Shown here piece by piece: positions 2,461 to 18,445 of a DNA stretch of 52,752 nt (its first letter is position 1; each line of letters starts with the position of its first letter). The position numbers were made by a program, and so were the translations under genes. The notes under the pieces were generated by a model that saw nothing but the letters and a program-made list of their open reading frames with translations, ran no database searches and was not told the DNA's origin. Origin of the DNA: a bacterium (GTDB lineage: Bacteria > SZUA-182 > DTGQ01); NCBI GenBank assembly GCA_023512255.1, contig JAILZY010000018.1:1-52752 (forward strand), read 5' to 3'.

Positions 2461-5400
2461 ATGGGAGGAAAGAGTGTGCGAGCCAGCGATCAAACCCCAA
2501 AAATACTAAGGGATCGAAAGCCTTCTTTACTGGCCCGGATGTTTTTACTTGTAGGGCAATTTCTATCTGGATCACATATCTATACCGATCGGATCTATAC
2601 TGATGATCGGAAGCCTTTTTTATGGGCCCGGAGGTTCTTACTTCTGAGTTTAGTTCTCGCTCTTTGCTCCTGTGGTGGTGGAGGAAGTGGGGGAGGGGAG
2701 AAATTAGTCAAGGTTTGCGGCTTCATTGAGGGAGAGGTCAGGGAGCGGGTAGTGATCAGGGTGAGCGGGATGAGAAATCTTGAAACCCAGAGTGAAACAA
2801 GCGGATTTTACAGCTTTTCCCTTCCCAACGGGACATATACCCTTAGCGCCTCGATGGCCAAATATCTTCCAATACCCCAAAGTCGCCAGCTCATCGTTCG
2901 GGGAAAAGACAGTCTGAACAATAACTTTCTGCTGGTGAAAGATCTTAGGGCCTTGATTCTCTGGGCTGATAGAGCCAAAATCAGGATTTCATCCACACCG
3001 GCCATTGACCACCGCGGGCTGATCTATGTAGGTAGCAGCGACGGCTCCCTGTATGCCTTTTTATCCAATGGCGACTGCCAATGGAGCTATGCTACCCAGG
3101 GAGCCATTCGATCCTCGCCAGCCATTGATCAGCGAGGTACGATTTATGTCGGCAGCGATGATCACTGCCTCTATGCCATCAGCTCTGATGGGAAGCGGCA
3201 ATGGGTTTACCAAACTAGCGCTGAGGTTCAATCCTCTCCGGCCATTGATGACTTTGGCAGGATCTATGTTGGCAGCAATGATGGCCATCTCTATGCTCTT
3301 TCTCCACAGGGGGGGCTACTCTGGTCGTATCAAACCGGTGGGGCGGTTCAATCCTCACCAGCCATTGATGCTCATGGCACTATTTATGTTGGAAGCAGCG
3401 ACGGCTATCTCTATGCCCTCTCTGCCCAGGGGAGCTTGAAATGGAAATTTCCTACTGGCGGAGCCATTATAGCCTCAGCAGCCATTGGTGCTGATAACAC
3501 TATCTATATCGGCAGCTTTGACCATAATTTGTATGCTATCAAGTCCTCTGGAGAGAAGAAATGGGCCTTCACCACCTGTGGCCAGATTCGCTCATCTTGC
3601 GCTTTGGCCGAGGATGGCACTATTTATTTCGGCTCTGATGATCAGTGTCTATACGCCTTGACTTCGGATGGCAAGAAGAAATGGGCCTATCAGGCCACAT
3701 CCTCTATCTCTTCTTCACCAGCCCTTGATCAGGCGCAGATTATTTATTTTAGCACTGATGATGGAACACTTTATGCCCTCACCTCTCAAGGTATGATTTA
3801 TGGGCTTTGGCCAGCAGCCAATGGAGAGAGCCGATCGGGAGAGGAGATCTTTGCCCAGCAAGGAATAGCTTGCTCGCCATCTCTGGCCGCGGCGGGGGCT
3901 GGGGAGATGGAAGGGAGGATTTATGTCAGTGGCCCTGACCATAGCCTCTATGCTCTGGCAAGCCCCTCATCAAAGGGATGGTTATCCTCATCCACCTGGC
4001 CTATGTTTCGCCAGGAAAGCAGACACCGGGGGAGCATTCCCCTTGATCTTCGCTGCTCTTTGTCAGGACGGGTCAGCGGCGTAGTTACAGAGGGAGTAAC
4101 TCTCTCCTTGCAAAGGATTGATGAATACCTTCCAATTACCCTCAAGACAACCTCAGATGGGACATTCCGCTTTATTGATCTTCGACCAGGGATTTATCTC
4201 CTTAAACCGTACAAAGAAGACTACTGTTTTGCTCCTGAAAGTATTGAACTGAGCATTTTCACCCTCCAAAACGAAGGGAATAACTTCGTCAGCTCTCTTC
4301 CGAAAACCTACACCATCTGCGGCCGCATCAGCGGTGATGTGCAGGCTGGGGTAGTTCTTTATCTGGATGGAAATAATAGTCAAGGGAAGAAAGTGAAGGG
4401 AATAACCATCTCAAAGGCTAACGGCGATTTTGAATTTACTGTCTATCGGGGATCATATCAGATTACGCCGGCCTTGGCAGGATACTCCTTTCAGCCTACC
4501 AGCAGACAGATTAAGGTTGAGAGCGCAAGTCACTATGTCGGCAATAATTTTGTGGCTCGTGCTCTTTCACTGCAGGAGCGGTATATGGTCTCAGGAAGCA
4601 TAACTGGTGATACCTTGAGTCAAGTAACTTTGACTCTGTCAGGGGACCTCTCCCAGATAGCGGTTTCCGATACCCAGGGGAGATTCAGCTTCTGGCTGCC
4701 TAACGGCCGCTATACTATTTCACCTTCTAAACCTGGCTACACCTTTTCTCCGCCTCAACGAGAGATCATCGTTCAGGGCAGCGGCAGCTCTGGTAATGAC
4801 TTTTTCGCCGTCTGTATTCTTCCGCCGGTTTCAGGAGAAAAATGGTCGGTCAAGGTTGGTGGTCGTATTTACTCTTCGCTGGCCCTTGGCTCAGATGGCA
4901 CCATCTATGCTGGCAGCTATGATGATGGCAAGATCTATGCCATTAGTCCCAATGGAAGCATCAACTGGACTCTGGCTACTCAGGGGGCTGTCTTTGCCGC
5001 GCCGGTAGTTGATCCAAAAGATGGAACTATCTACATTGGCAGCACTGACCATTACTTATATGCCATTGATCCGGGAGGAAAAATAAAATGGAAAATAGCG
5101 CTAGGGGACAAAATCATGTCTACTGCGGCCCTTGGCTCAGACGGCACTCTCTACGTTGGGTGCAATGATGGCTTTCTCTATGCCTTGAGGAGTGCAGATG
5201 GAGCGAAAAAGTGGGCGAGTCAACTGGAAAATATAGTTTCCTCACCAGCTCTCGGATCAGATGGAGCGATTTACGTAGGAGCGGGAAAATGGGAAGGCGG
5301 TGGGCACCTCTACGCCCTGAGGGTCGCGGATGGAGGGAAAAAGTGGGTGGCTGATATCTATACCCTTTCGCGGCCAGCTATAGGAGCAGATGGAACCCTT

Positions 5401-5817
5401 TATGTGGGAAGCAAGGACAAGAATATTTATGCTCTCTATTCAACTAATGGCGCTCCGAAATGGTACTATCCTACAGGTGGGGAAATCGTTTCCTCGCCAG
5501 TTATTGGCCCTGATGGAACCATTTATGTTGGCAGCGATGACGGCAGGCTGTATGCTCTTACTCCTGAAGGCCGTTGCCACTGGTCAGCGATCACCGAGGC
5601 TGAGGTCCGCTCATCGGCTGCCGTTGGCCCTGACGGCACTGTCTATATTGGGAGCCACGATTATTATCTATATGCCTTCGATCCAGTCAGTGGAGAGCAA
5701 AAGTGGAGATTCCTTACCGAGGGGGGGAAAATCACAGCTATACCAGTCATAGGGAAGGATGGCACGATCTATATTGGAAGTCAAAATGGTCGAATCTATG
5801 CTCTTGGTGGGCAATGA
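2461..5817 (+). CDS. Large lipoprotein: two eight-bladed PQQ propellers and four carboxypeptidase-regulatory-like modules
   Basis: A 1118-residue exported lipoprotein (lipobox LALCSC, then a Gly-rich tether). In order: one CarboxypepD-regulatory-like beta-sandwich (about 82-160), eight PQQ-type blades (about 165-515), three more such modules (about 530-613, 617-700, 708-785), then eight more blades (about 793-1118). The blade signature is DGTIYVGSxDxxLYAL. The fourth blade of the second propeller has an insertion (AGKWEGGGH), like blade 4 of the protein at 1014-2207, so the two are paralogous. No enzyme motif is seen; it is probably an outer-membrane or surface scaffold. The start is uncertain: GGAGGA at 2464-2469 precedes an in-frame GTG at 2476 by 6 nt, while the ATG at 2461 has no ribosome-binding site. 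The region encoding the signal sequence looks duplicated (RKPSLLARMFLL, then RKPFLWARRFLL). Confidence 0.88.
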   Translation: MGGKSVRASDQTPKILRDRKPSLLARMFLLVGQFLSGSHIYTDRIYTDDRKPFLWARRFLLLSLVLALCSCGGGGSGGGEKLVKVCGFIEGEVRERVVIRVSGMRNLETQSETSGFYSFSLPNGTYTLSASMAKYLPIPQSRQLIVRGKDSLNNNFLLVKDLRALILWADRAKIRISSTPAIDHRGLIYVGSSDGSLYAFLSNGDCQWSYATQGAIRSSPAIDQRGTIYVGSDDHCLYAISSDGKRQWVYQTSAEVQSSPAIDDFGRIYVGSNDGHLYALSPQGGLLWSYQTGGAVQSSPAIDAHGTIYVGSSDGYLYALSAQGSLKWKFPTGGAIIASAAIGADNTIYIGSFDHNLYAIKSSGEKKWAFTTCGQIRSSCALAEDGTIYFGSDDQCLYALTSDGKKKWAYQATSSISSSPALDQAQIIYFSTDDGTLYALTSQGMIYGLWPAANGESRSGEEIFAQQGIACSPSLAAAGAGEMEGRIYVSGPDHSLYALASPSSKGWLSSSTWPMFRQESRHRGSIPLDLRCSLSGRVSGVVTEGVTLSLQRIDEYLPITLKTTSDGTFRFIDLRPGIYLLKPYKEDYCFAPESIELSIFTLQNEGNNFVSSLPKTYTICGRISGDVQAGVVLYLDGNNSQGKKVKGITISKANGDFEFTVYRGSYQITPALAGYSFQPTSRQIKVESASHYVGNNFVARALSLQERYMVSGSITGDTLSQVTLTLSGDLSQIAVSDTQGRFSFWLPNGRYTISPSKPGYTFSPPQREIIVQGSGSSGNDFFAVCILPPVSGEKWSVKVGGRIYSSLALGSDGTIYAGSYDDGKIYAISPNGSINWTLATQGAVFAAPVVDPKDGTIYIGSTDHYLYAIDPGGKIKWKIALGDKIMSTAALGSDGTLYVGCNDGFLYALRSADGAKKWASQLENIVSSPALGSDGAIYVGAGKWEGGGHLYALRVADGGKKWVADIYTLSRPAIGADGTLYVGSKDKNIYALYSTNGAPKWYYPTGGEIVSSPVIGPDGTIYVGSDDGRLYALTPEGRCHWSAITEAEVRSSAAVGPDGTVYIGSHDYYLYAFDPVSGEQKWRFLTEGGKITAIPVIGKDGTIYIGSQNGRIYALGGQ

Positions 5818-7904: not shown

Positions 7905-10409
7905 TCAGAAGCTTATCGTAACTGGATAGATATAAGGGCCTCTTTGGATCAGAAGGAGCAGATTATCCTGATCAGCGTTAGCGATGATGGCCTCTTGGAA
8001 ATCTTTTAGGTTATAGATTTCTTTATCATTGATCTGGCGGATGATATCTCCCTTTTTGACTCCTATTTTGTCAAGGGGGCTTCTGTCCCTGACCGAGATT
8101 ACCATAACGCCGCTATTTTGCTCACCCATTCCTCTGAATAACGAAGCTTGAATATTTTTTACTTTCACCCCGAGCAGGTCAGCAGCAATTTTCTCTGCCG
8201 CCTCGGGGGTCAGTCGGGCAGGGTTAAGAGTTACGGACAGGGGCTTTCCTTCCCTTAGAATCGAAATTTTCATCGTACTGTCGGCAGTGAATCCGGCCAC
8301 AGCCGAGGAATAGGCTTCTTGGGAGGGAATCTGCTGATCATTGATTTTTTGGATGATATCTCCCCTCTGCAATCCTGCCCTCTCAGCCGGGCTGCCGTCA
8401 ATTATTCGGGTGATGATCACCCCTGCCTGGTAGCCAAGGTTGAAATAGCCAGCCAGGTCCCTGGTAAGATTTTGAACACGAATACCCAGCCAGATCTTGC
8501 GGACCTTGCCATAGGTAATTAGATCAGCCACGATCCTTTTGGCCCGGTCAATGGGAATGGCAAAGCCTATCCCCTCGGCTTTTTGGTAAATAGCCGTATT
8601 GATGCCGATTAATTCACCGGCGATATTAAGCAGCGGGCCTCCGCTGTTTCCTGGGTTGATCGAGGCATCTGTCTGAATAAAGCCTTGGTAGGTGAGGTCT
8701 TCGTTTATCTTCACCGTCCGATTGACCGCACTGATTACTCCAGTAGTTACAGTGTGGGAGAGGCCGAAAGGATTGCCGATAGCCACCACGGTTTCCCCGA
8801 CCATCAGATCATCGGAGTGCCCCATAGTGATATAGGGCAGGTTTCCGTTTGATTCTATTTTCACCACAGCTAGATCCGAGCGGGGATCAGCGCCGATCAG
8901 CTTGCCCTCAAATTCGCGGTTATCGGCTAGGGTGATGGTGATTTTGGATGCTTTGAGAATAACGTGCTCATTGGTCAGAATATAGCCTTTGGGATCAATG
9001 ATCACCCCTGAGCCCAGGCTTTGCTGTTTGTAGCTCCTAGAGGGGAAGGTATCGAAGAAGTTATCGAAAAAGTTATCAAAAAAGGGGTTGCCAAAAGGGT
9101 TTACTCTCTCCCGGACAATCCGTTCGGTACTGATATTGACTACCGCTGGGCTCACCTTTTCGACCACTTTGACTACGGACGTCTTGCGCTCCTCGCGACC
9201 GGAAGCATTGGCCGCCGTGCTGGCTACAGCCAGGCCTAGGAGCAGACAGAGTAATACTATCCCCAGGAGGCGAAAAAAGCCTCTTTTGTGGTGTTTTTCA
9301 CGATGGCTTTTTTCATGGTCTTCCTCTTTTGGCTCATTCTTCTCCTTTGCTTCTGCCGCGGCAAACTCCCTCAGCAGCTCCTCCTGCCGTGGGGTAAGGC
9401 TGGTTGGCACCTTGACTTTGAGCTTTACCAGTTGATCGCCCTTCCCCTTGCCGTAGACATTGGGAAAGCCAGCCTTGGGGATCCGCATTACCGTATCGCT
9501 TTGTGTTCCGCGTGGGATGGTAAGCTTGTGCGGCCCATATAGTGTAGGGACCTCAATCTCCGCTCCTAGGGCAGCCTGAGCAAAGGATATAGGAATTGTG
9601 CACAGGACATCGTCGCCCTGGCGAGAGAAAAAATCATCCTCTTTTACCCGAATGGAGATATAGAGATCACCGGGAGGTCCTCCCCGCTCTCCAAGAGCTC
9701 CTTCGCCGAGGAGTCGGAGCTGGGAGCCATTGTCAACCCCAGCCGGAATTTTGACATGTAGTTTTCTCTGTCGCAATATTTTACCTACTGCCCGGCACTC
9801 AGGGCAGGGAGATTCGATTACCTGGCCTGCGCCTCGACATTTGGGACAGGTAGTAGTAATGCTTAAAAAACCCTGAACGCGCTGAATTTGACCTCGTCCA
9901 CCGCAGACCCGGCAAACCTTGGGTGAAGTGCCTGGTCTTGTCCCATTCCCCTGGCAGGTTGGGCAGGGCTCATATCTTTCCACTTCAATGTCGGTTTCCA
10001 ATCCGAAGGCTGCCTCACGGAAGGAAATCGATATCTCGTGGGCAAGGTCAGCGCCCCTGGTTGGACGCTGTCGAGCAGCTCTTGAGGTTCTGAACCCAAA
10101 GAAATCTCCGAAAATATCAGAAAAACTGCTGAACAGATCACTGCCGAATATATCGTCAAAGTTGAAGCCGGTAAAGCCCGAATTCTGAAGCCCGGCATGA
10201 CCAAATTGGTCGTAGAGGCTTCTTTTCTGGGGATCGCTTAAAACCTGGTAGGCTTCAGAAGCCTCTTTGAATTTTTCCTCAGCCTCCGGGTTGCCTGGGT
10301 TGCGGTCAGGATGATATTGCAGCGCTTTTTTTCGATAGGCTTTCTTTATTTCTTCCTCAGTAGCGTTCCGTGGAACTTCCAAGATTTCATAGTAATCCTT
10401 TTTGATCAT
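7905..10409 (-). CDS. DnaJ co-chaperone fused in frame to membrane-anchored HtrA/DegP protease (possible frameshift-joined pair)
   Basis: One open frame of 834 residues from the ATG at 10409, where the J-domain begins ([16 protein letters not shown]); in-frame upstream starts are less likely. Residues 1 to about 355 are a full type I DnaJ: J-domain with HPD, Gly/Phe-rich region, four CxxCxGxG-type zinc motifs ([24 protein letters not shown] and the variant CPECRAVG) and both C-terminal substrate domains. A charged linker and one hydrophobic segment (about 380-400) follow. Then comes a trypsin-like HtrA with a complete triad (His482 in NEHV, Asp512 in RSDLAVV, Ser589 in GNSGGP) and two PDZ domains (about 630-720 and 740-834). 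If real, DnaJ would be cytoplasmic and the protease periplasmic. However, a Shine-Dalgarno and ATG for a separate htrA lie at the junction; a single extra A there would split the frame into two normal genes. Both enzyme parts are certain; the fusion is not. Confidence 0.85.
9290..9330 (-). other. Fusion joint: internal SD, ATG and A6 run between dnaJ and htrA parts
   Basis: Read on the minus strand, AGAGG is followed 6 nt later by an ATG at 9316-9314 and then by six A (9313-9308). In the current sequence that ATG is one frame off htrA and stops after 19 codons. With seven A the DnaJ frame would end a few codons later at TGA (EDHEKKPS-stop), and the ATG would open htrA as [19 protein letters not shown], a standard signal-anchor start. 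This is seen directly in the sequence. Whether it reflects a sequencing error, a fixed mutation or programmed slippage cannot be told from it. Confidence 0.75.
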
Positions 10410-10671
10410 AGCTCGCTCTACCTCTTTATCCACCATACCCTTCACCTGAGCTCTATCTCCTGTGTCCTCTACTATGCATGGTGTTATTAGCCTTTTTCAA
10501 AAATAAAAAGATTGACTATCTCAACCTTTTGATTAATAATTATATTTCATGATGAGACAGTTTATTTTTATTGATTCATCATTTTACAACCAAACAGATT
10601 CCCTTGTCAACAAGAGGATAACCTCCCTTTGTCTAAACCGGGGCCTTTGACATCATATTCTGGTACGAATT

Positions 10672-10804: not shown

Positions 10805-11575
10805 ATGACCATAACCGAGAATCATGACCAGTTAGTGACATTTTGGCTTTTGTCCTTTAGGTGGTTGATAATTCTGGGTCTCATCTTGTTGGTGCTAGGG
10901 TTTGGCCTGTTGTTGGGATGCAGCCCTGCCTATGTCTACGACGATATTGGTGAGATGCAGCTTATGAGCTCGAATTACCAGGGGGAGCCGCTTGAAGCCG
11001 AATATCTTCTTCAGAGTGGGGATGAGCTTGAAATTACCTTCTATTATCATCCAGATTTCAATACCCGTACCGTTATTCGACCCGATGGGCTGATCTGTCT
11101 GCAACTCATTGGAGAGGTTAAGGCCGGAGGCCTGCCTCCCTCAAAGGTTCAGCAGGTTATTCGGGAGAAGTATGCCAAAATCCTTCGGGATCCGGAAGTT
11201 ACGGTGGCGGTTAAGAATTTCTCCCAGCAGGTTTACGTCGGCGGAGAGGTGCTCCAGCCGCAAATGGTTAATCTTGGCAGCGGCAAGACAGCGCTTCAGG
11301 CCATCTTTGCGGCTGGCGGATTTAAGGATACTGCGGAAATGCGCAGTGTTATTATCTTGCGAAATATTGGAAAGCCGAACTTTCGAGCCATCAAGGTTGA
11401 TCTCATGAAACTGTTCTTGAGCAAGCGATTGGTGAAAAATGATCTTCAGCTTCAGCCTAACGACGTAGTCTATGTACCCAAGACCCTGATCAGTAAAGTT
11501 GATCAGTTTGTTGATCAATACATGAATAAAATTGTTCCTAATGAGGTTTTTACTGATCTTATCAAGGGAAAGTAA
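10805..11575 (+). CDS. Wza-like polysaccharide export lipoprotein (Poly_export/SLBB)
   Basis: A 256-residue outer-membrane polysaccharide export protein. A long hydrophobic signal ends in the lipobox LLLGC (about residue 38). The Poly_export domain follows (about 60-140: YLLQSGDELEI, VIRPDGLICLQLIGEVKAGG, LRDPEVTVAV), then one SLBB domain (about 145-230: VYVGGEVLQPQ, TALQAIFAAGGF, LQPNDVVYVPK). It is shorter than E. coli Wza and has one SLBB domain, so it is nearer the short OPX proteins of exosortase/EPS-type loci. GAGGAG lies 14-19 nt before the start. It heads a tight operon with the GumC-like and kinase-like genes (38 and 10 bp gaps). Assignment is strong; the exported polymer is unknown. 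Confidence 0.9.
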   Translation: MTITENHDQLVTFWLLSFRWLIILGLILLVLGFGLLLGCSPAYVYDDIGEMQLMSSNYQGEPLEAEYLLQSGDELEITFYYHPDFNTRTVIRPDGLICLQLIGEVKAGGLPPSKVQQVIREKYAKILRDPEVTVAVKNFSQQVYVGGEVLQPQMVNLGSGKTALQAIFAAGGFKDTAEMRSVIILRNIGKPNFRAIKVDLMKLFLSKRLVKNDLQLQPNDVVYVPKTLISKVDQFVDQYMNKIVPNEVFTDLIKGK

Positions 11576-11613: not shown

Positions 11614-13182
11614 ATGGATGAGTATAGAATACTCAATAGGTCAGCGCGGGATATAGTGGCGATTTTCTTCAAGTACAAATGGAAAATGTTGCTGACCTTC
11701 ATGCTGGTCACTTCCTTGTCTATTTTCATTATCCTGATTCAGAAGCCGGTCTATGAAAGTCAGGCTAAAATTTTGGTTAAGGAGGGACGAGAAAACGCAA
11801 CTCCCACCACCTCGTTCATGACTTTGCCTGAGCGGATAATTGATATTACCCGAATGGAGGATATTAATTCTGAGATCGAGATTCTCCGAAGCAGAATACT
11901 GGCCGAGAAGGTGGTGGCCAAATTAGGAGTTGATCTTAAAAAGTCCTCGGATAAAACAGGGCGCAGAGAAGCTGCCTCCCACTCTACCGTAAGTCAGCAT
12001 CTGACCAAAATCTTCAACGAATTAAAAAGTCTTCTAGCCCAATTCCTCCCCTTTACCCTTTCGCCCCGAGGGCACCTGTCATCATTTGAGCAGGCGGTGC
12101 TTCGGATTCAAAAGAACCTAGATGTTGAGCTTATCCAGAATTCTAACGTGATTAGGGTGAGCTTTTCTGATCCTGAACCTACGATAGCGGCTGATGTTAT
12201 CAATACCCTGCTGGATTTTTACCTCGATCAGCATCTTCTGGCATATAAAACTCAAGGGGCTTATCAGTTTTTTTATGATCAGGCGGTTAACTTCAAGCAG
12301 AAGATGGAAGCTTCGGAACAGAAGCTGGAGGAGTTCAAAAAACGCTATTCCTTGGCTGAGCTGAGTTTGCAGCGGGATATACTCATTAAGCAGGAGGGTG
12401 AGTATGAAAACAGCCTGCGAGCTACCGAGAGCGCCATTTCTGGGCTCAAGAAGCAGATGCAGCAGCAGAAAGAGCAGTTAGCTAATCAGAAGGAGAGAAT
12501 TCTGCTGACCGAAATTTCCCGAAGAGACCCTTTGAGAGATCAATTAAGCTCTCAACTTTCTACTCTTAAGCTTCGCGAGCAGCAGCTTTTGAACACCTTT
12601 GCTGATGCCAATCAGCGCAAGATCGCTGACCTGCGGAAAGAGATTCAGGAGGTGGAATGCCAATTGAGTGAGCTAGATGAGCCAGTGCAATTTGAGACCC
12701 AGGTCGGCCTAAACAGCATTTATCTTAAACTGACCGAAGCGATCTTGCAAAATCAGGCTGAGCTGGAAGCCCTTGAGGCTAAGAGGCAGAGTCTGGCCCA
12801 GAACCTAGCTTTATGCAGGCAGAAGCTGGCCGATATAAACATGAGAGAAATGGAGCTCAATCAATTGCAGCGCCAGCTTAGGATCGACGAGGAAAACTAC
12901 CAACTTTACCGAAAAAAAATGGAAGAAAACCGTATTTCTGAGGCTATGGATGCGGCTCGTTTTGCCAACATCAGTATCATTGAGCCGGCTCTAGTTCCCC
13001 TGCTGCCCAAGAAAACCATGAAATGGCTTAGAATCTTTGTGGCTTTCATACTTGGGATAACGGCAAGTTTTGGGGTAGCCTTGTTATCAGAACTGCTTGA
13101 TCATACGGTAGAGACGCCAGATGAGCTTGAGGCCTCTGTGGATTTGCCGGTTTTGGGCTCCATTCCTGAGATGAAAGAGTAA
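11614..13182 (+). CDS. GumC/Wzz-type polysaccharide chain-length/co-polymerase protein
   Basis: A 522-residue inner-membrane PCP-2-type protein without its own kinase domain. The N-terminal Wzz region has a membrane segment at about 22-42 (WKMLLTFMLVTSLSIFIILI) followed by the usual YESQAKILVK strand. A long coiled coil rich in Gln, Glu and Lys occupies about 220-440, and a GNVR-like stretch precedes the second membrane segment (about 470-490, WLRIFVAFILGITASFGVAL). The tail (ETPDELEASVDLPVLGSIP) is the usual link to the partner tyrosine kinase, here encoded 10 bp downstream. It should control polymer length together with that protein and the Wza-like exporter. Confidence 0.92.
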   Translation: MDEYRILNRSARDIVAIFFKYKWKMLLTFMLVTSLSIFIILIQKPVYESQAKILVKEGRENATPTTSFMTLPERIIDITRMEDINSEIEILRSRILAEKVVAKLGVDLKKSSDKTGRREAASHSTVSQHLTKIFNELKSLLAQFLPFTLSPRGHLSSFEQAVLRIQKNLDVELIQNSNVIRVSFSDPEPTIAADVINTLLDFYLDQHLLAYKTQGAYQFFYDQAVNFKQKMEASEQKLEEFKKRYSLAELSLQRDILIKQEGEYENSLRATESAISGLKKQMQQQKEQLANQKERILLTEISRRDPLRDQLSSQLSTLKLREQQLLNTFADANQRKIADLRKEIQEVECQLSELDEPVQFETQVGLNSIYLKLTEAILQNQAELEALEAKRQSLAQNLALCRQKLADINMREMELNQLQRQLRIDEENYQLYRKKMEENRISEAMDAARFANISIIEPALVPLLPKKTMKWLRIFVAFILGITASFGVALLSELLDHTVETPDELEASVDLPVLGSIPEMKE

Positions 13183-13192
13183 GAAGTGTATC

Positions 13193-15310
13193 ATGTACAC
13201 TACATTTTACGGCCTTTCTGGCCCGCCCTTTAAAAATACTCCTGATCCTGATTTTTTCTTCAGGAGCGCCGGACATCAGCGGGCACTACTCTTTTTGCTC
13301 TATGCCATCAGGGAAAAAAAAGGGCTAATCACGGTTTGCGGTCAGGCAGGCACTGGTAAAACAGCTCTTCTCCAGGTCATCGAGAGGGAGATCGGGCAGT
13401 CGGTTAAGATGATCTTTTTCCTCGATGCCGGATCAATGGGTAGCAGTGTGTCGCTCTCTGGATACCTGCTGGAAAAGCTTGGAATTTCAGCTACAGGGCT
13501 ATCGAGAGATAATTTTGGGCTCCTTCGGGATGGCCTCTTGCAGCAGATTCAGCAGGGGATATCAGTGGTCTTGGTGGTAGATGAGGCGCAAAACTTGGAC
13601 TGGCGACAACTTGAGCAGATCAGGCTTTTGCTTAATTTGGAGACATCTGACTGCAAACTTCTGTCAATCATCTTAGTAGGGCAGCCAGAGCTACAGAATA
13701 AATTGAATCAGCCTACCTTTCAGCAGCTTAAGCAGCGGATCGATCTGAGTTGCCAGATCGACCCCCTAACTGAGATGGAAAGCTATCACTATATCGAATT
13801 TCGGCTAAAGCGGGCAGGCCGCGATCGGCAGGATATCTTTACCCCTGAGGCACTCCAGACGATCTACCTCCGTACTCAGGGAATCCCGCGTTTGATCAAC
13901 AATATTTGCGACAAAGCCCTGCTCCTTGGATTTAGTCGCCAGCAGCAGTATATTGATCGGACGACCATTCAGGAGCTCTCCCTGCTCTTTGAAAACCAGC
14001 GGGGAAATCCTCCGCCATCTTCTTCCCGAACATCTTTCTTTCAGCAAGGCTGGAGTCAATTGCCCGGCAGCGGCTCGCTTCGAGCAGCAGATGAAGTAGC
14101 TGATCATCGGTTTCAGATTAGAGATTTTAGGTATCAGATGATTGACTCAGGCAAAAGGATGTATTCCTGGAGGACACCACCGGCAGCGCTCTGGGAGGAG
14201 GAAGAAGCCCGCAGATTTATCCAGGAGGGTTTGCGGGCAATTTTGGGACAGTATGGGAGGCAGCAGCAGCATGGTGGCAGAGAGGCTGAGGATCATACCA
14301 GCGGAAGGCGAGGAGCTATCGGAGAAAGACCTCCCCAAATACCTGAGGATAGTAGAGGAAGAGCAGCCTGCCAGCAGAAAGCTTCCCCTGCTGCCAGCAG
14401 TCAGAGTGGGCAAGCCATTGGGAAGATTGAGGGTAAGCCCCCCTTGGAAAGTGCTCAGTCAACAGAGAATCCTGACCGAAGAGAGGCAGCAAGACCAAAG
14501 CCTCTTTCTTCGGAGTATATAAAACGGTTTGAGTCGATGAGCCTTGCCTCCTCAGGCAAGAAGCAGAGGGGAGGGTGGCTTGTAGGGTGGTTTAAAGAGC
14601 GGCTGCATTCCCTTCACCGGCTCATAATCCGCCGCCGAGGCCATCCTCTGCCTAGTAGGCTGGATGAGCAAAGCTATTGTCTGCCGTCAAAAGTTATCGA
14701 AGAGTATCAGAAAATCAAGAATAACCTCTACCAGGCCAATCCGACAAGCCGCCTCCAGGCTTTGATGTTTGCCAGTGCCAACTCTGGTGAAGGAGCTTCC
14801 ACCGTAGCCGCAAACTTTGCCACAACCTGCGCTTTGACCGAAGAGGCCAAGGTGCTGCTGGTAGATGCCAATTTTCGGGCTCCCAAGCTTCACAGCCTCT
14901 TTGGTCTCCCAAGGTCAGAAGGGCTGGGAGAGGTGCTTAGAGAAAAGGTTGGCTGGCGGGATGTAGTGCGAGCTTGCAAGATTCCTAATCTTTCGATCAT
15001 CACCGCTGGAGAGCCAGCGATTAATCCGCTCTACTTGCTAAGATCCGCTACCCTTGAGCGAACGATTCAAGAGTTTAGAGAGCAGTTCGACTATGTGCTG
15101 TTCGACACCTGCGCCATTTACCTCTACGCGGATCCGATCCTGCTGGGAGCATATCTTGATGGGCTTATTCTGGTAGTTCAGGCAGGCAAAACACGGCTTG
15201 AGACTATCCGAAAAACCAGGGAGATGCTGACCGGATCAGTGCCGATTATGGGTGTAGTGCTGAACCGGAGAAACTACTATATTCCGCAGGCCCTGTACCG
15301 AAGGCTGTGA
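13193..15310 (+). CDS. ExeA-type AAA ATPase fused to a BY-kinase-like (CpsD/Wzc) domain with degenerate P-loop
   Basis: A 705-residue two-part protein. Residues 1 to about 270 are an ExeA/GspA-type AAA ATPase, as found beside exosortase/EPS loci: start YGLSGPPFKNTPDPDFFF, Walker A GQAGTGKTA (about 49-57), Walker B VVLVVDEAQN, sensor-like GQPEL. About 270-490 is a Gln/Ser/Pro/Arg-rich linker. About 495-705 is the cytoplasmic domain of bacterial tyrosine kinases, with Walker A' (VLLVDANFRAPK) and Walker B (YVLFDTC). Its P-loop reads SGEGASTVA instead of GEGKST: the conserved lysine is Ala. The C-terminal tyrosine tail is short (NYYIPQALYRRL). These two families are normally separate genes. Kinase activity is doubtful; a regulator of chain length is a safer call. 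No exosortase gene is present in the window. Confidence 0.85.
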   Translation: MYTTFYGLSGPPFKNTPDPDFFFRSAGHQRALLFLLYAIREKKGLITVCGQAGTGKTALLQVIEREIGQSVKMIFFLDAGSMGSSVSLSGYLLEKLGISATGLSRDNFGLLRDGLLQQIQQGISVVLVVDEAQNLDWRQLEQIRLLLNLETSDCKLLSIILVGQPELQNKLNQPTFQQLKQRIDLSCQIDPLTEMESYHYIEFRLKRAGRDRQDIFTPEALQTIYLRTQGIPRLINNICDKALLLGFSRQQQYIDRTTIQELSLLFENQRGNPPPSSSRTSFFQQGWSQLPGSGSLRAADEVADHRFQIRDFRYQMIDSGKRMYSWRTPPAALWEEEEARRFIQEGLRAILGQYGRQQQHGGREAEDHTSGRRGAIGERPPQIPEDSRGRAACQQKASPAASSQSGQAIGKIEGKPPLESAQSTENPDRREAARPKPLSSEYIKRFESMSLASSGKKQRGGWLVGWFKERLHSLHRLIIRRRGHPLPSRLDEQSYCLPSKVIEEYQKIKNNLYQANPTSRLQALMFASANSGEGASTVAANFATTCALTEEAKVLLVDANFRAPKLHSLFGLPRSEGLGEVLREKVGWRDVVRACKIPNLSIITAGEPAINPLYLLRSATLERTIQEFREQFDYVLFDTCAIYLYADPILLGAYLDGLILVVQAGKTRLETIRKTREMLTGSVPIMGVVLNRRNYYIPQALYRRL

Positions 15311-16100: not shown

Positions 16101-18392
16101 CTACCTCCCCATGCTGCCAGAGCGCTGCATCTCGATAGTTTTTTCGGTTCTCTCAAGGAGCTGCCGTCCCAAGGCATTTTGGGGGTCGATGGCCAGAACT
16201 TTTTTGAATTCTTCAAGTGCCTTGGGAAAATCTCCCTTGTTTTGCGCATAGATGATGCCAAGATTAAGGTGTGGGTCTGCCCATTTGGGGTCTTTGGCTG
16301 CGGCTTTTTGGAAGGAGTCAATGGCCTGATCGAAAGAATTCTGAAAGGCATAAGCCATGCCTAGGCCATGATAAGCCCGGCTATAGTTTGGTGATATCTC
16401 AATCAGCTTGCGGAAATAGTCTGCGGCTTCAGAAGCCTTGCGCTCTTCCAGGTAGATACTGGCGAGGTTATATAGGGCCGATGGGTCTTTTGGATTGGCC
16501 TTGAGCACTGTTTGACAAAGACTTATAGCCTTGTCTACCTCTTTCAGGTTATAGTAGACAGAGACTAGGTGATTTTGGGCCAGGCTGTAGCCTGGGTCAA
16601 GCTCAAGACACTTCTCCAGGTTGGCTTTGGCTTCGGTCCAGTTTCCCTTGCCAATATAGTAAATTCCAAGGTTGAGATAAACCTCCCTGCTTTTGGGATT
16701 CAGCCTCAGGGCCCTCTCCAGAGCAGATTTTGCCTCCTCGGCTTGACCAGCGCTAAGAGAGAGGGTCGCCAACTGAACCAGATTGTCAAGATGATCCGGC
16801 CCAAGGGCCACTGCCTGTCGGTAAGACTCTATAGCTTTATCGCTCTTTCCCATGGCTTGATAGACAGCTCCCAAGCAGGTGAAGGCATCAATATTTTGGG
16901 GATCCTCTTTTATAACCTTTTCAAATTCCTTAATGGCCTCGGCATACTTTTGTTGACTCAGGTAGTTTGCTCCCTGATTAAAATATTTTAGCAGACCGAT
17001 TTTGCGCTTGGGATCAGGATAGGTCGAAGATTTATTCTTTGCCGGGTCACTGGTAAAGACATAGCCAAGGCTCCTTAATTTCTCCCTGGAGGCGGCATCA
17101 AGAGTGAGCGGTTTGGCTGCTGTCTGCTGGCCCGAGGCCGCGGCAAGCTGCTTTTTTAGAGCTAGAAACTCTTTTTCGTACTGCTCGGCCAGTTTTTTCT
17201 CCTTTTGGATCAGGTTCTTTGCCTCAGCCGGATCGTTAGCCAGGTTGTAGAGCTCACTTTCCGGCGCTCTGATGTATTTCCACTGGGCCGTGCGAAGTCC
17301 CTCCAGCGGACTCCAGCCGTAGGTAAACCTGGGATAGTCGGTTTCGCAGTAGAGCACAAGGTTCAAATCCTTCTTCTGGCCGCTCAAAAGGGGAAGAAGA
17401 CTTACTCCCTGCATCCCCTGGGGCGCCTTCTGTCCCAGAATATCAAGCAGGGTAGGAGCAATATCAATCAGGCGGACCAGAGAGCTGATTCTGGTGTTTT
17501 TCAGCACCCTGGGAGGATAGCGGAAGATCAGGGGGACGTGGAGGGTAGCCTCATAGAGGAAGATGCCGTGGGTATCCTCTCCATGATCTCCTAGTGCCTC
17601 GCCATGATCTCCTGATAAGACAATCAGGGTTTGATCGTAAATACCTTGCTCTTTTAATTTGTTGATCAGCACCTTGATCCAGGAATCGGTATAGGCGATC
17701 TCTCCATCGTAGGGGCTGTGAGCGTAGACATCCTTAAATGGTTGTGGAGGATCGTAGGCTGTGTGAGGATCGTAATAATGTACCCACAGGAAGAAGGGAA
17801 CCTCTTTTTTGCGGCTGCCTAACCATTGAACAGCTGCCCGGGTGACGGTTTCGGCCCGACGCTCCTTCTGGAGCATAGCTGCCGACACACCGCTGGTCAG
17901 ATCATCGTTATAAATGTTAAATCCCTGATCCAGACCAAAGCGGGAATCAAGGACATAGGCAGAAACAAAGGCTGCGGTCTCATATCCCTGCTGTTTTAGA
18001 AGCTCAGCCAGGGTAAGGGCAGCTTCAGACAAGGCAAAGGTTCCATTACTGCGAAGGCCATGAGTGATCGGGTAGGTGCCAGTAAAGATCGAGGCGTGCG
18101 CGGGCAGAGTGGTTGGGGTTGGAGTAAATGCCCACTCAAACAATACTCCCTCACTGGCTAGAGCATCTATCTGAGGAGTCTTAATTCGCTTATAGCCGTA
18201 GCAGCCAAGCCGATCAGCCCGCAGGGTATCGACGGTTATGACCATGAGGTTTGGAGGTGATTTTTTGTTCTGTGGTGTGCTCAGGGAAGATGAGGGAAAA
18301 AGGAAAAGTAGAAGACATAGGCTCAAAAAAATCTTTTCGATACCAACTGGGGACTTGTTCATTGCTAGACCTCTCTGTTTTAAAAATTTCAT
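16101..18392 (-). CDS. Sulfatase-fold (alkaline phosphatase superfamily) protein with C-terminal TPR array
   Basis: About 764 residues. The ATG at 18392 has AGAGGT upstream; the ATG at 18362 is also possible. A signal peptide or anchor is followed by a sulfatase-like domain (about 45-400): VDTLRADRLGCYGY, the nucleophile region TTLPAHASIFTG, LSGDHGEALGDHGE and its metal ligands, and an LYNLANDPAE end. In classic sulfatases the nucleophile motif is C/S-x-P-S-R; here it is T-L-P-A-H. Formylglycine formation is therefore impossible and Thr would act, as in phosphotransferase-type relatives. The last ~310 residues are about eight TPRs (YAEAIKEFEKVI type). This architecture recurs in Gram-negative bacteria with unknown substrate. 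It is convergent with the glycosylase gene (24 bp apart). Confidence 0.85.
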   Translation of the reverse strand: MKFLKQRGLAMNKSPVGIEKIFLSLCLLLFLFPSSSLSTPQNKKSPPNLMVITVDTLRADRLGCYGYKRIKTPQIDALASEGVLFEWAFTPTPTTLPAHASIFTGTYPITHGLRSNGTFALSEAALTLAELLKQQGYETAAFVSAYVLDSRFGLDQGFNIYNDDLTSGVSAAMLQKERRAETVTRAAVQWLGSRKKEVPFFLWVHYYDPHTAYDPPQPFKDVYAHSPYDGEIAYTDSWIKVLINKLKEQGIYDQTLIVLSGDHGEALGDHGEDTHGIFLYEATLHVPLIFRYPPRVLKNTRISSLVRLIDIAPTLLDILGQKAPQGMQGVSLLPLLSGQKKDLNLVLYCETDYPRFTYGWSPLEGLRTAQWKYIRAPESELYNLANDPAEAKNLIQKEKKLAEQYEKEFLALKKQLAAASGQQTAAKPLTLDAASREKLRSLGYVFTSDPAKNKSSTYPDPKRKIGLLKYFNQGANYLSQQKYAEAIKEFEKVIKEDPQNIDAFTCLGAVYQAMGKSDKAIESYRQAVALGPDHLDNLVQLATLSLSAGQAEEAKSALERALRLNPKSREVYLNLGIYYIGKGNWTEAKANLEKCLELDPGYSLAQNHLVSVYYNLKEVDKAISLCQTVLKANPKDPSALYNLASIYLEERKASEAADYFRKLIEISPNYSRAYHGLGMAYAFQNSFDQAIDSFQKAAAKDPKWADPHLNLGIIYAQNKGDFPKALEEFKKVLAIDPQNALGRQLLERTEKTIEMQRSGSMGR

Positions 18393-18445
18393 TATCTGAC
18401 CTCTTATTTGGTTAAAATATATCAACATCTCGATAGAGAGTCAAT

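Follow-up and report, generated by a model that had tools for sequence, protein, structure and literature searches.

One protein of 705 amino acid residues, encoded at positions 13193 to 15310 (+) of the window (the whole 52,752-nucleotide stretch of DNA that was analysed), joins an ExeA-type ATPase to a putative BY pseudokinase. We consider it probable, at about 75%, that this fusion serves a bipartite PCP-2 co-polymerase as its cytoplasmic subunit, combining an EcpK/HfsB-like BY pseudokinase scaffold with a fused ExeA module. PCP-2 octamers pass through a cycle under the tyrosine phosphorylation of a BY-kinase (PMC12004946 and references therein), and the work on EcpK raised the question of how co-polymerases of the pseudokinase type cycle without it. 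The fusion names a candidate partner for such a cycle, the ExeA-type ATPase.

The gene is a single open frame with an ATG start and no internal stop, and both of its halves were matched by profiles, which bears out the sequence-only reading of an ExeA-type ATPase joined to a BY-kinase-like domain. Residues 1 to 262 (13193–13978, +) form the ExeA-type AAA domain, with a match to AAA_22 (6.6e-22) and one of 224.3 bits to TIGR03015 (XrtA-associated ATPase, ExeA-like), under the cut-off of 324.5. Its Walker A motif GQAGTGKT (residues 50–57, 13340–13363, +) and Walker B motif VLVVDEAQ (residues 126–133, 13568–13591, +) were placed by alignment, and GTGKT, DEAQ and LKQR are all intact both in the genome of the window (G000) and in a genome of the same genus (G001). 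A Gln/Pro/charged linker follows at residues 266 to 497 (13988–14683, +); it is variable: G001 shares 45% of its residues, and a metagenome bin of the same family (G003, locus L043) shares 18%.

Residues 498 to 705 (14684–15307, +) form the pseudokinase domain, which scored 114.0 bits against TIGR01007 (tyrosine autokinase; residues 503–694), over the cut-off of 108.05, and 119.6 bits against TIGR03018 (residues 499–694), under the cut-off of 230.65. Among solved structures it matched Staphylococcus aureus CapAB (4jmp, E 2.4e-24) and also Wzc. The best Foldseek matches of a two-sequence model of this half were CapAB, Wzc and VpsO at TMq 0.65–0.72; the model is of low confidence (pLDDT 51, pTM 0.57) and was used for fold support only. 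A single-sequence AlphaFold2 model of the full fusion was too poor to be of use (pLDDT 36).

The fusion is neither a chance event nor an artefact, because the fusion, the lysine loss described below and the operon all recur in two independent assemblies, G001 (70% identity) and G003 (42%). All three genomes are multi-contig drafts, so two genes might in principle have been misjoined, or a degenerating remnant might be at hand. Such an origin is extremely improbable given that the fusion stands without stops in three assemblies of two genera, with a pseudokinase half that is 60–80% conserved at a dN/dS of about 0.1. Between G000 and G001 the NG86 dN/dS is about 0.085 for the ExeA half, about 0.10 for the pseudokinase half and about 0.36 for the linker; both halves are thus under purifying selection, and the linker much less so. 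In the open-licence literature we found no description of a fusion of ExeA and a BY-kinase.

The P-loop of the C-terminal half reads SGEGAST (14783–14803, +) over the canonical PGAGKST in the alignment with CapAB. The catalytic lysine is replaced by A535 (codon 14795–14797), by T in G001 and by A in G003, so the lysine is missing just where the sequence-only reading had missed it. That reading also held that Walker A' and Walker B are kept, which is true in part. In Walker A' (LLVDANFR, 14855–14878, +) the first aspartate, D558, is present and the second has become N560, giving VDANFR against VDxDxR; in Walker B (VLFDTCA, 15095–15115, +) D638 is kept and DxPP is lost to DTCA. In true BY-kinases the arginines of the EX2RX2R motif serve ring assembly. 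In the window protein this motif reads E503..Q506..K509.

The protein stops as soon as the last strand is complete, its end reading NYYIPQALYRRL. What had been described as a short tyrosine tail is no tyrosine tail at all: there is no flexible tail with a tyrosine cluster, and the terminal segment NRRNYYIPQALYRRL (15263–15307, +) instead carries a conserved, family-specific IPxxxYxxL motif, helical in the low-confidence model (helix 210–215). The C-terminal half thus has the features of a BY pseudokinase, a BY-kinase fold that has neither the catalytic residues nor the tyrosine tail. It most likely cannot phosphorylate tyrosine and, given the lost kinase residues, is probably a scaffold rather than an enzyme.

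The same losses define a wider family. The kinase domains of the three fusions, and after them a profile built from 11 lysine-less members, served to search for it in about 416 distinct genomes of roughly 98,000 (panels of 290 and 386 genomes that overlap heavily). Lysine-less members were found in 20 of 20 genomes of the phylum group f74 (one truncated before the P-loop), in all 7 genomes of f104, in 7 of the 8 genomes contributed by f219, f140 and f261, which together are one phylum group, and also in f92 and f60. In place of the lysine stands A, T, C or V. Among 90 distinct rows, 37 lysine-less and 53 lysine-bearing, an [IV]PxxxY end is present in every lysine-less row and in 4 of the lysine-bearing ones, and Asn replaces the second Walker A' aspartate in 35/37 against 4/53. 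Both EX2RX2R arginines are mostly gone from the lysine-less rows, whereas Arg or Lys is usual at both positions in the lysine-bearing rows. The signature GEG[ATCV][ST], VDANxR and an IPxxxYxxL end therefore separates the family from true kinases. Several lysine-less proteins exceed the "tyrosine autokinase" cut-off, and that name is misleading for them in automatic annotation.

In a tree built from all columns, the lysine-less rows lie on one side of a branch with 99/93 support, and the three fusions form one 100/100 group inside them. When the diagnostic segments were removed the clustering stayed (2 changes, where shuffling gave a mean of 29.5). However, one row, apparently that of G280, then fell outside, and a single clade was recovered in 10% of bootstrap trees; a single origin of the family is for this reason likely but not secure. 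Lysine-bearing kinases that already have an IPxxxY end occur at L107, L111, L115 and L223 (G155, G292, G237 and G215), and may represent a stage between true kinases and the pseudokinase family.

Could the C-terminal half still be a kinase? Its ATP site would have to be rearranged, with another lysine or residues of a partner supplying the charge, and a tyrosine of the short end would be the substrate. D558, D638 and the GEGxST frame are retained, Y694, Y695 and Y702 lie close to the end, and Y702 is invariant in the family. PDB entries titled Wzc-K540M MgADP exist, so loss of the lysine need not abolish nucleotide binding; this counts in favour of a kinase. With D558 and D638 in place some nucleotide-dependent switching may remain. 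Against kinase activity, the lysine and the second Walker A' aspartate are gone together in 35/37 rows, no flexible tail remains to reach a neighbour's site, and the ring arginines have mostly disappeared. We regard a surviving kinase as very unlikely.

The fusion lies third in an export operon, next to a Wzz-type gene. The first gene (10805–11575, +) encodes an OPX/Wza-type polysaccharide export protein (Poly_export 1.4e-20, SLBB_2), whose synteny is kept in G001, in G003 and in the loci of the pseudokinases. The second (11614–13182, +) encodes a Wzz/GumC-type PCP-2 of 522 residues (Wzz 2.5e-10, GNVR 1e-6, TIGR03007 141 bits) which has no kinase domain and stops shortly past its last hydrophobic stretch. 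Its cytoplasmic tail, ...TPDELEASVDLPVLGSIPEMKE, appears to be of the type that docks BY-kinases, judging from CapA and EpsV (PMC12004946). The intergenic gaps are 38 bases (OPX to PCP) and 10 bases (PCP to fusion). The same three genes occur in the same order in G001 and G003. The gene after the fusion encodes an HhH-GPD protein in G000, was not found in the stretch of G001, and is replaced in L043 by a partial frame of no Pfam family; since the downstream gene differs, the conserved unit is the three genes.

No glycosyltransferase, Wzx or Wzy gene adjoins the operon among the scanned window ORFs, nor was an exosortase seen among them; the glycosyltransferases of the window lie at 34–43 kb, away from the operon. 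Other frames of the window were noted as well. An 846-residue frame at 7905–10445 (−) combines a full DnaJ (J domain, zinc centre, DnaJ_C) with a complete Do/HtrA protease with two PDZ domains, and G001 has a similar fusion next to its export operon (L044 14606–17107, 834 residues, 1540 bits). A 775-residue frame at 16101–18428 (−) encodes a sulfatase-family enzyme with a C-terminal TPR array. Tandem PQQ/BamB-type beta-propeller proteins are encoded at 1014–2207 and 2461–5817 (+), the second of 1118 residues with carboxypeptidase-regulatory-like repeats.

Elsewhere the host keeps several lysine-bearing BY-kinases, which favours a scaffold role for the fusion. Five other places in G000 exceed the TIGR01007 cut-off, with the match split into two pieces at two of these. 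Their kinases have the lysine, and at their C-termini stand tyrosines or tails that contain them. On contig C70 a lysine-bearing kinase is followed by a separate ExeA ATPase, together with Wza- and Wzz-like genes. In two BY-kinases of this genome a DUF4388 domain interrupts the kinase fold, past Walker A' and ahead of Walker B, at C90 (about 28.8–30.0 kb; L011 1408–2700) and at C32 (about 21.3–22.5 kb; L012 583–3246).

The gene order outside the genus and family indicates how the fusion arose. In the f74 loci and in G280 the order is Wza-Wzz-ExeA-pseudokinase; ExeA and pseudokinase each have a frame of their own, and the two frames abut or overlap. The fusion is therefore derived, since the ATPase and the pseudokinase stand as separate neighbours in the same order there. 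A split of the ORF into two genes in relatives, which the sequence-only reading had counted against itself, is thus seen in these distant relatives, but the fusion is still real. In the f104, f140 and f92 loci the order is Wza-Wzz-pseudokinase and ExeA is absent, so ExeA is not an obligatory partner; in G237 and G215 an ExeA gene precedes a lysine-bearing kinase. Recurrence of the order Wza-Wzz-(ExeA)-pseudokinase in distant genomes supports the scaffold, and shows the ExeA-pseudokinase pair encoded together in distant bacteria. No fusion beyond those of G000, G001 and G003 was found in the panels of 290 and 386 genomes, though others may exist outside this sample, and a plasmid search gave partial or separate-gene matches only. 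Two further ideas on origin found no support. Lysine loss is not a consequence of fusion, as unfused lysine-less relatives exist. The ExeA tree, with weak deep branches, does not show the pseudokinase-linked ExeAs to be one co-inherited lineage and sets the fusion ExeAs apart from those of f74.

The sequence-only reading had further placed the intact ATP site in the ExeA half and suggested that ATP-dependent control had moved there from autophosphorylation. The site does look intact in G000 and G001. In G003 (contig C466; L043 3049–3873), however, Walker A is kept, DNAH stands for DEAQ (Glu to Asn) and GRPEL for GQPEL, and there is no QR box, so that of the three marks of an ExeA-type ATPase, namely Walker A, the glutamate of Walker B and the QR box, the first alone is left. 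This suggests a non-hydrolysing ATPase module, in which ATP binding may persist, and hydrolysis by the AAA half thus looks dispensable to the architecture there.

Hydrolysis by the ExeA half could nonetheless drive octamer assembly and disassembly in place of tyrosine phosphorylation, and the intact, purifyingly selected ExeA half of G000 and G001, as well as the ExeA gene found between Wzz and pseudokinase in G280 and in every f74 locus with enough flank, would agree with this. We hold such a takeover to be unlikely, if far from negligible. The lysine-less loci of f104, f140 and f92 are without a neighbouring ExeA, ExeA also adjoins lysine-bearing kinases (the C70 pair, G237 and G215), and the G003 ExeA half is degenerate and, at 43.5% identity to that of G000, has diverged further than the pseudokinase half at 60.6%, yet fusion and pseudokinase persist. 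Between G000 and G001 the pseudokinase halves are 80% identical. Nor does the ExeA tree, with its weak deep branches, show the ExeA partners of pseudokinases to be one clade. For these reasons the proposed shift of control is not supported as an explanation for the lysine loss, which occurs apart from fusion. The stronger form, in which a working AAA motor is hard-wired to the pseudokinase ring and ATP-driven remodelling of the co-polymerase, not tyrosine phosphorylation, sets chain length or export, is rather doubtful. If true, it would describe a PCP-2 free of phosphorylation and still ATP-powered.

Under the preferred reading of a pseudokinase scaffold, the pseudokinase half would attach to the Wzz/GumC protein encoded next to it, at that protein's cytoplasmic C-terminal tail, and this binding alone would scaffold assembly and disassembly of the co-polymerase. 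Being fused, ExeA and pseudokinase would be held at 1:1 at the base of the co-polymerase.

The nearest described systems are those of EcpK and HfsB, compared here by their published descriptions. EcpK of Myxococcus xanthus has neither Walker motifs nor a tyrosine tail; it is required for EPS and binds EpsV, a PCP without a kinase domain. HfsB of Caulobacter crescentus is described as acting like EcpK, and EcpK/HfsB-like BY pseudokinases are proposed as a third PCP-2 subfamily (PMC12004946). Like the fusion, the EcpK/EpsV pair has a BY-kinase fold, no catalytic lysine or tyrosine-rich tail, a modelled C-terminal helix and a kinase-less PCP (PMC12004946). Unlike it, EcpK has no ExeA domain, has lost all three Walker motifs where D558 and D638 remain here, and ends in a segment without tyrosines where the fusion ends in IPxxxYxxL with tyrosines. 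HfsA/HfsB likewise pair a pseudokinase with a kinase-less PCP-2, and no fused ATPase is described for them (PMC12004946).

The XrtA/PEP-CTERM pair TIGR03015 and TIGR03018 supplies the best NCBIfam models of the two halves, and both scores stay under their cut-offs (224.3 against 324.5 and 119.6 against 230.65). The XrtA-type pair on C70 consists of separate genes in the reversed order, kinase then ATPase, and its kinase has the lysine. In the ExeA/GspA ATPase family of type II secretion, Walker A and B lie in an AAA core. The N-terminal half shares this core (AAA_22), whereas no peptidoglycan-binding domain was detected in the fusion, and its ATPase is joined to a pseudokinase encoded within an export operon. 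Wzc and CapAB (PDB 3la6, 4jmp and 3bfv) resemble the C-terminal half in fold and in a role beside a Wzz-type membrane protein; the fusion differs from them in having no lysine, second Walker A' aspartate, EX2RX2R arginines or tyrosine cluster, and in carrying the ExeA module.
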